DNA of 64,000 nucleotides from Porphyromonadaceae bacterium H1 (GTDB lineage Bacteria; Bacteroidota; Bacteroidia; Bacteroidales; Paludibacteraceae): NCBI GenBank assembly GCA_001653155.1, contig BDEJ01000047.1:1-64000 (forward strand), written 5' to 3'. The position numbers and the translations under genes are program-made. Numbering within the stretch: position 1 is the first letter of the stretch; the number at the start of each line of letters is the position of its first letter. Below, piece after piece: positions 53,537 to 55,245 of this stretch. A model generated the notes under the pieces. It searched no databases. It was given only the letters and a program-made list of their open reading frames with translations, and was not told the DNA's origin.

Positions 53537-53544
53537 TATCTTTG
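53537..53544 (+). promoter_or_regulatory. -7 box for the Cys/Lys-rich gene
   Basis: TATCTTTG matches TAnnTTTG, giving a leader of about 40 bases before the ATG at 53589. Confidence 0.55.
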
Positions 53545-53588: not shown

Positions 53589-53855
53589 ATGAAAAAAGTA
53601 TTTGTAACGCTCATGGCTTTTGCCATGATATTGGGAAGCGCTAATCTGGTAGCTCAAGATAAAGAGAAAAAATGCTGCAAGGCGAAAACCGAAGCTTGCG
53701 CGGACAAAGAAAAGAAAGAATGTCCCAAAGAAGCTGAGAAAAAAGAGTGCAGCAAAGGCGAAAAAAAATGCTGTAAAAAAGGTGGTGATAAGAAAGAATG
53801 CAGCAAAGGTGAAAAGAAATGCTGCAAGAAGACACAAGAAGAAAACAAGAAATAA
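53589..53855 (+). CDS. Small secreted Cys/Lys-rich repeat protein
   Basis: This 88-residue protein has a clear signal peptide (1-23, ending LVAQ) and a mature part of about 65 residues made almost wholly of Lys, Glu and Cys. Ten cysteines (29, 30, 37, 45, 54, 61, 62, 71, 78, 79) include CC pairs at 29, 61 and 78. The 13-residue unit KECSKGEKKCCKK occurs twice (52-64 and 69-81). The two copies differ at six third codon positions and at no amino acid. I recognise no family; metal binding in the periplasm is a reasonable guess, as is a short intrinsically disordered structural role. It has its own promoter and terminator, so it is a real transcription unit. Confidence 0.85.
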   Translation: MKKVFVTLMAFAMILGSANLVAQDKEKKCCKAKTEACADKEKKECPKEAEKKECSKGEKKCCKKGGDKKECSKGEKKCCKKTQEENKK

Positions 53856-53878
53856 CACCTTTCTTGTGAGTTGAACTA

Positions 53879-53907
53879 AAAAAGAGTGTGCATAACACTC
53901 TTTTTTT
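53879..53907 (+). terminator. Terminator of the Cys/Lys-rich gene
   Basis: AAAAAAGAGTGT pairs with ACACTCTTTTTT around a five-base loop and runs into T's, 24 bases after the stop codon. Confidence 0.88.
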
Positions 53908-53949
53908 AGTAAGCATCGGATCAAAACACAAAATCAATCATTTATAATT

Positions 53950-55245
53950 ATGAAAACACAATTCTCCCTAATCAAATTATCTATTGTAGCTTTATTACTA
54001 CCGTTTTTTACAACGCTTCAAGCCCAACTGGTGAAAGTAAGCGTATCTCCCGAAAACAGCAACTGGCTCTACCGTCCCAATGAAAAAGTAAAATTCAGAA
54101 TTTCGGTAACCAAAAACAGCATCCCTTTAGAAAACGCCAAGGTTTACTACTCCGCCGGCCCGGAGATGATGCCGGCCAGCATCAAAGACAGCGTAATTCT
54201 CCGAAACGGATTGGGTCTGATAGATGGCGGGCGCCTGAAAGAAGCGGGTTTTCTGCGCTGTTGGGCTTCAACTTACTACGAAGGTAAAAAATACAGCGGC
54301 ATGGGTACAGCCGGCTTTGCTCCCGAAGAGATAAAACCCACCGTAAAACAACCGAATGATTTCAAGGAGTTTTGGGAGAATGCTAAAGCCGAAGCCGCTA
54401 AAATTCCGATGGATGCACGCATGAGGCTGCTACCCGAGCGTTGCACGGAGAAAAGCAACGTGTACGAAGTAAGCATCCAAAACTTCAGATACGGGTCTCG
54501 GGTCTACGGCATACTCTGTGTACCCAAAGCTCCCGGAAAATATCCGGCAGTACTTAAAGTTCCCGGAGCCGGTGTGCGCCCCTATAACGGCGAAATCGCT
54601 CAAGCCGACAAAGGAATAATCACGCTTGAAATAGGTATACACGGTATCCCCGTAACCATGGCGCCTTCGGTTTACGAAGACATTCGCAACGGCGCTCTGA
54701 AGCTTTATCCGACCTACGATTTGGACAATAAAGACCGTTATTACTACAAACGCGTCTATCTGGGTTGCGTACGCTCCGTAGATTTCCTCTTCAGTCTTCC
54801 TGAGTTCGATGGCGAGAATTTGGCTGTTACCGGAGGAAGCCAGGGAGGTGCCTTATCCATTGTTACCGCAGCGTTGGACAGTCGGGTAAAAAGCCTTGCC
54901 ATTTTCTTCCCCGCTATGTGCGACATGACCGGATACCTGCATAAACGTGCCGGAGGATGGCCTCATCTTTTTAGTGCAAGCAACTTAGCCATCAACAACA
55001 CAGCACAAAAAATCGAAACCAGTCAATACTACGATGTCGTAAACTTCGCACGCGAGCTGAAAGTACCCGGTTTCTACTCATGGGGATACAACGACGACAC
55101 CTGCCCTCCTACTTCAATGTATGCGGCATACAACGTCATAACAGCCCCTAAAACGCTTTTCATCGTAGAAGAGACGGGCCATTGGACTTACCCCGAACAA
55201 ATAACAAAAGCTTGGGATTTCCTATTTAAACAAATCGGGAAGTAA
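53950..55245 (+). CDS. Acetylxylan esterase / cephalosporin-C deacetylase-type (CE7) esterase, secreted
   Basis: A signal peptide (about 1-26, ending LQAQ) precedes a beta-sandwich-like N-terminal region (30-125), then the CE7 alpha/beta-hydrolase: PTVKQPNDFKEFWENAK starts it, SNVYEVSIQNFRYGSRVYGI follows, and Ser297 lies in VTGGSQGGALS, the nucleophile elbow. The catalytic histidine is in EETGHWTY at the end, with the acid in SWGYNDDTCPP. Such enzymes deacetylate plant or other polysaccharides. Its 3' end overlaps mutY by 24 bases on the opposite strand. Confidence 0.9.
   Translation: MKTQFSLIKLSIVALLLPFFTTLQAQLVKVSVSPENSNWLYRPNEKVKFRISVTKNSIPLENAKVYYSAGPEMMPASIKDSVILRNGLGLIDGGRLKEAGFLRCWASTYYEGKKYSGMGTAGFAPEEIKPTVKQPNDFKEFWENAKAEAAKIPMDARMRLLPERCTEKSNVYEVSIQNFRYGSRVYGILCVPKAPGKYPAVLKVPGAGVRPYNGEIAQADKGIITLEIGIHGIPVTMAPSVYEDIRNGALKLYPTYDLDNKDRYYYKRVYLGCVRSVDFLFSLPEFDGENLAVTGGSQGGALSIVTAALDSRVKSLAIFFPAMCDMTGYLHKRAGGWPHLFSASNLAINNTAQKIETSQYYDVVNFARELKVPGFYSWGYNDDTCPPTSMYAAYNVITAPKTLFIVEETGHWTYPEQITKAWDFLFKQIGK

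Follow-up and report, generated by a model that had tools for sequence, protein, structure and literature searches.

The window, which is the whole 64-kb stretch of DNA analysed, contains a gene for a small secreted protein rich in lysine and cysteine (the K/C protein) which, on the evidence of its sequence, is one of a family of proteins, so far without a name, that occurs across Bacteroidota and is often encoded next to copper/heavy-metal or sulfide-handling genes. We see about an even chance that this protein acts as an exported, metallothionein-like thiol buffer for which soft metals are the putative ligands. A metal such as copper is the best-supported guess, by way of the gene context found in relatives. 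Since the window gene itself has no metal or sulfide genes as neighbors, its role is deduced from these relatives; we infer metal binding, the identity of the metal, the redox state of the thiols and that the window member acts in the same way as relatives encoded beside metal genes.

The 88-aa ORF occupies positions 53589..53855 of the + strand, from an ATG at 53589 to a TAA at 53853-53855. Residues 1-23 (MKKVFVTLMAFAMILGSANLVAQ; 53589..53657, + strand) read MKK...LVAQ and form a predicted Sec signal peptide, whose probable cleavage site lies at an AQ/D boundary common to most relatives, and the mature chain begins DKEKK. Its 65 residues include 10 Cys (residues 29, 30, 37, 45, 54, 61, 62, 71, 78 and 79), 25 Lys, 12 Glu and 3 Asp, with a net charge of about +10; Lys makes up ~38% of the mature chain, Cys ~15% and hydrophobics 2%, and a composition count finds neither Met nor His. 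The protein contains no CXC or CXXC. The ORF reading bears out the ten cysteines in some 65 mature residues, the CC pairs and the signal peptide described in an earlier note on this DNA, and the chain that it called all-charged is nearly so, having almost no hydrophobics in its mature part. That note knew no family for the protein and, indeed, Pfam and NCBIfam searches returned nothing reaching the cut-off, the best Pfam match being only CD20 (E = 0.43). A sequence search of the PDB gave no relative, a paralogue search found no second copy in the same genome, and a plasmid search gave no match.

The gene is flanked by a promoter box and a strong hairpin, in agreement with the promoter and terminator noticed previously. 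A Bacteroidetes-type -7 promoter box (TAnnTTTG; TATCTTTG, 53537..53544, + strand) lies 44 nt before the ATG and is kept at the same distance in the orthologue of a congener, but this pattern has 38 matches on the + strand of the 64-kb window, so that the box is weak evidence alone; no clear -33 box is present upstream of the gene. The intrinsic terminator hairpin (GAGTGT-GCATA-ACACTC, with an A/T extension and a T run; 53875..53910, + strand) has a predicted energy of -15.0 kcal/mol (z = -5.6). It was not listed by a terminator pattern scan of the window, probably because its T run is base-paired to the A run. The upstream neighbor is dnaB, whereas in the congener the upstream genes are, as read from sequence, isocitrate-dehydrogenase-like and acetyltransferase-like. 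Downstream, in the window as in the congener, lies a gene for a secreted acetyl xylan esterase family protein (AXE1; 53950..55245, + strand in the window). As no clear TAnnTTTG box is seen between the terminator and the ATG of AXE1 (53907-53950), transcription of the esterase gene may rely on read-through out of the K/C gene. We do not call an operon with a shared function, since the six AXE1 relatives inspected, from five further genomes of the family, have no K/C gene beside them. The window gene's own neighbors, dnaB and the esterase gene, provide no metal-gene clue.

A search for homologues across Bacteroidales, which the earlier note had proposed, uncovered a family whose members keep most of the cysteines. 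Of 393 Bacteroidales genomes, 42 contain a match (E <= 1e-3) to profile A1, which was built from the window protein and five relatives. Hoylesella loescheii also encodes a K/C member (L007). The broader profile A2 matches 21 of the 175 good genomes of the window's family (E <= 1e-4) and, over the whole phylum, 13 of 392; in a genus that we label Flavobacterium-like, a label that is our own reading, 68 of 150 genomes have a match. The same architecture is seen at most of the loci inspected, and a minority of the profile matches are false. Several ExbB-like proteins (L011-L013, L029) and Cys-free proteins (L031, L039, L048, L065, L076), the latter including the Lys/Ala-rich L048 and L065, are false or doubtful matches and were excluded from the family counts. 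Two other kinds of Cys-rich protein also came to light. A 246-aa probable lipoprotein from a Prevotellaceae MAG (L006:2443-3183) carries a long KECC/CCKK tail on an uncharacterized N-terminal domain, and four phylum-level matches (L067, L068, L071, L077) are longer proteins that consist of a signal peptide and a Cys-rich segment followed by one or two YHS/TRASH-like domains, which score below the curated cut-off where checked (L067).

That the likeness between members is not only compositional is argued by the scores of the mature sequence, together with a rigid Cys layout and a KAKTE motif. Against a mature-only profile built without the window genus, the window protein scores 12.3 bits and the congener 8.9, while the best of 1000 shuffles of the window mature sequence reaches 0.8 bits, and the window protein thus beats 1000 of 1000. 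KAKTE, which in the window protein spans residues 31-35 (53679..53693, + strand), is present in 24 of the 55 non-redundant members, no more than 24 residues from the signal peptide, where shuffles predict 0.17, a count inflated by the query itself having contained KAKTE, so that matches were partly selected for it. In 54 members, adjacent cysteines (CC) occur 89 times and a spacing of eight 65 times (30 and 13.5 expected, respectively), whereas CXC and CXXC occur once each (27 and 24 expected), and only two members have either. Adjacent pairs or a spacing of 7-9 residues are therefore the rule for neighboring cysteines. Between paired relatives, Cys is conserved at 93% and Lys at 89%, ahead of Glu (72%), Asp (61%) and Ser (58%), and purifying selection is apparent in five lineages, with a mature pN/pS that is mostly 0.15-0.32. 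The window protein displays all the traits by which we define the proposed unnamed K/C family of Bacteroidota: a signal peptide, a Lys-rich mature chain that lacks a core, CC pairs separated by 7-9 residues from a single Cys, the absence of CXC and CXXC, and a KAKTE-like motif after the signal.

Within the mature chain, a 14-residue stretch, KKECSKGEKKCCKK, occurs twice, at residues 51-64 (53739..53780, + strand) and 68-81 (53790..53831, + strand), and the two copies show seven synonymous and no nonsynonymous differences. The earlier note had given 13 residues and six synonymous sites, figures that need this correction, and was right that no amino acid differs. Under neutrality, seven synonymous differences out of seven would have a probability that runs, with the transition bias assumed, from 1e-6 to 2e-4, a value biased by the stretch having been picked for its identity; the fairer test, on the whole 18-residue unit, gives 8.3 synonymous versus 6.7 nonsynonymous differences (P 0.0008 to 0.04). 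The idea that selection keeps the exact peptide is not supported, because the congener orthologue (genome G001, locus L005), which is 61% identical to the window protein, has KKECTGEKKEGCKK and KKECAKGEKKECCKK as its repeat units, with the Cys and Lys positions kept. As far as these sequences tell, the constraint on the repeat is real: the Cys/Lys pattern is kept, and the 13-mer as such is not fixed. The congener protein retains seven cysteines, and its alignment with the window protein yields a pN of 0.23 with a saturated pS (~0.84), the mature pN/pS being ~0.2. Neither a Cys-less homologue nor identical DNA copies, both of which had been named as findings that would count against the original reading, were seen in this pair.

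Among known systems, bacterial metallothioneins (SmtA/BmtA, Pfam Metallothio_Pro, and MymT of Mycobacterium tuberculosis) are similarly small and Cys-rich, with about 15% Cys and few hydrophobic or aromatic residues. Their ligands are of the CXC/CXXC type and His. In contrast, the K/C protein carries a Sec signal, spaces its CC pairs by 7-9 residues and has a lysine-rich mature chain; bacterial metallothioneins are drawn as cytosolic in PMC7558416. The window protein gives no Metallothio_Pro match above the curated cut-off and lacks CXC/CXXC metal-binding clusters of the metallothionein kind. It may work like a metallothionein, yet it lies outside that family by the tests made. Csp1 proteins, periplasmic Cys-rich proteins storing Cu(I) (PMC7558416), share with the K/C protein export and abundant cysteine, but are Tat-exported four-helix bundles with Cys lining the core, whereas the K/C protein is a short, charged, core-less chain. 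The window signal peptide has no twin Arg, 65 mature residues are too few for such a bundle, and no profile matched. CusF/SilF are small periplasmic partners encoded with CusA-type pumps, as are some K/C relatives. CusF is a β-barrel using Met, His and Trp, while the K/C protein offers only Cys; the window protein has no CusF profile match, and its mature chain has no Met/His copper site.

The genes around the relatives are what points to metals. At two loci of one genus (L081, L100), genes for CusA/CzcA (TIGR00914, 1162 and 1168 bits), an efflux adaptor (CusB) and YnfA are followed by the K/C gene, which in a third genome (L102) also comes after YnfA. At L110 and L112, the gene directly upstream encodes an exported HMA protein that resembles MerP and copper chaperones. 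This HMA gene is in turn preceded by genes for a TonB-dependent receptor and for a membrane-anchored protein rich in Cys. At the Flavobacterium-like L113 and L116, HMA genes are adjacent or nearly adjacent to the K/C gene. HMA genes lie within 2 kb of a K/C gene in 4 of 41 genomes against 0.20 expected (P = 5e-5) from a random-gene baseline over all 41 genomes (174 HMA matches, 154 Mb); with L110 and L112 taken as one case, the three independent cases give P = 1e-3. Other Flavobacterium-like loci have HMA (L121, L128), CusA/CzcA (L124) or outer-membrane efflux proteins (L122, L130, L131, L136, L139, L141, L142), the neighbors at L139 and L124 being identified by profile and the remainder of these efflux and HMA neighbors by sequence similarity. 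Metal genes are not neighbors of the window gene or of most Bacteroidales members. At five Bacteroidales loci (L083, L088, L090, L091, L097), the K/C gene is divergent from a sensor histidine kinase-response regulator pair, which suggests regulation by that pair; we considered RprXY as a candidate identity for it. Small membrane-anchored proteins with Cys clusters (e.g., HYCCTGC) are encoded upstream of TonB receptors or beside K/C genes (L110:3268-3732, L112:2945-3397, L121:1790-2125, L133:1101-1433, L136:1755-2090). Neither Pfam nor NCBIfam gave a match for those that were scanned, and these proteins are a possible copper-linked family.

We propose that an exported, largely core-less polycation with evenly spaced thiols, arranged as CC pairs and single cysteines 7-9 residues apart, would, in the periplasm or outside the cell, buffer soft metals through its thiolates with a high capacity. 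The bound ions, most likely Cu(I) or similar, would be held until CusA/CzcA-type efflux pumps or an HMA chaperone take over, and the lysines would ensure solubility and balance the negative charge that metal-thiolate clusters carry. In favor of this metal buffer we count a family that extends beyond composition, the non-random Cys layout, the conservation of Cys and Lys, purifying selection and the metal-gene neighbors. Against it we count the near-absence of the CXC/CXXC typical of metallothioneins, the Cys-free profile matches, the lack of metal genes near the window gene and most Bacteroidales members, the possibility that exported thiols may be oxidized, a sulfide/persulfide cluster around many Flavobacterium-like members and a structural model.

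The cluster underlies the main rival explanation, an unlikely one in our estimate, in which the protein would be an envelope thiol/persulfide buffer whose cysteines would take up sulfane sulfur or reactive oxidants and then be regenerated by persulfide enzymes and thioredoxin-like proteins, metals being incidental. Most of the 29 Flavobacterium-like loci read lie in a series of genes for an MBL-rhodanese, a small Cys-containing membrane protein, a thioredoxin, sometimes an HMA protein, DUF6132 and the K/C protein, ending with an outer-membrane efflux protein or CusA/CzcA. Thioredoxin and/or MBL-rhodanese (persulfide-dioxygenase-like) genes lie within 1.5 kb of the K/C gene at 14 of 29 Flavobacterium-like loci, often with DUF6132 in between, and sulfide:quinone-reductase-like genes are found at L135 and L140. 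However, the thioredoxin and MBL-rhodanese have no signal peptide whereas the K/C protein is exported, the Bacteroidales contexts have HMA and CusA genes and no sulfide genes, and the redox motif CXXC is absent. The metal and persulfide readings are not exclusive, because soft metals and sulfane sulfur are competitors for one set of thiols. The MBL-rhodanese/thioredoxin/HMA/DUF6132/efflux cluster recurs with the K/C gene at L119, L121-L124, L127-L129, L132, L134, L137 and L143-L145, and its small membrane protein carries GCGPNGC and has no Pfam match. In the open-licence literature, we found no description of such proteins or of the persulfide cluster, and no paper linking persulfide and metal genes in a cluster of this kind.

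Two further explanations are less likely than the metal or persulfide readings. It is rather improbable that the protein is a Lys-rich envelope protectant of the acid-shock (Asr) type or a cell-surface polycation in which cysteines only cross-link. Asr likewise has a signal peptide and a Lys-rich, repetitive, polar chain, and it is the best NCBIfam match (NF033636), at 17 bits far below the curated cut-off of 50; Lys is conserved almost as well as Cys, and Cys-free Lys/Ala-rich proteins match the profile. The strict spacing and conservation of Cys, and the metal-gene neighbors, speak against this, and we know of no Cys in Asr-like proteins. We consider it distinctly improbable that the protein is a helical-hairpin repeat stapled by disulfides (twin C-x6-CC), serving as a small structural or binding module. 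A single-sequence AlphaFold model, of low confidence overall (mean pLDDT 60.7) and with block means of 76-86 over residues 51-80, has two helices over the repeat and suggests a helical hairpin there rather than disorder, and members with even Cys counts outnumber those with odd counts (38 to 16). But related members with four Cys inflate the even counts, the congener has seven Cys, and hydrophobics at 2% are too few for packing. Finally, low-complexity drift of a short secreted ORF without specific function, to which the patchy distribution noted above in the window's family and the many lengths and repeat numbers might point, is very improbable given purifying selection in five lineages, the conserved promoter position and motif, and the recurring neighborhoods.

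What emerges is one definable family, named by no profile library, that recurs near CusA/CzcA pumps, HMA proteins and a thioredoxin-persulfide cluster in a phylum that dominates in the gut and is also common in soil and water. Characterized bacterial metallothioneins are, to our knowledge, mainly cytoplasmic, and our search of the open-licence literature found no described envelope metal buffer of such kind in Bacteroidota. It is possible, although we would put it on the doubtful side, that the family is a widespread exported metallothionein-like class whose cysteines follow a grammar of their own (C-x6/7-CC repeated along a lysine chain), which would act as the envelope metal buffer of Bacteroidota, linking copper efflux with persulfide handling.
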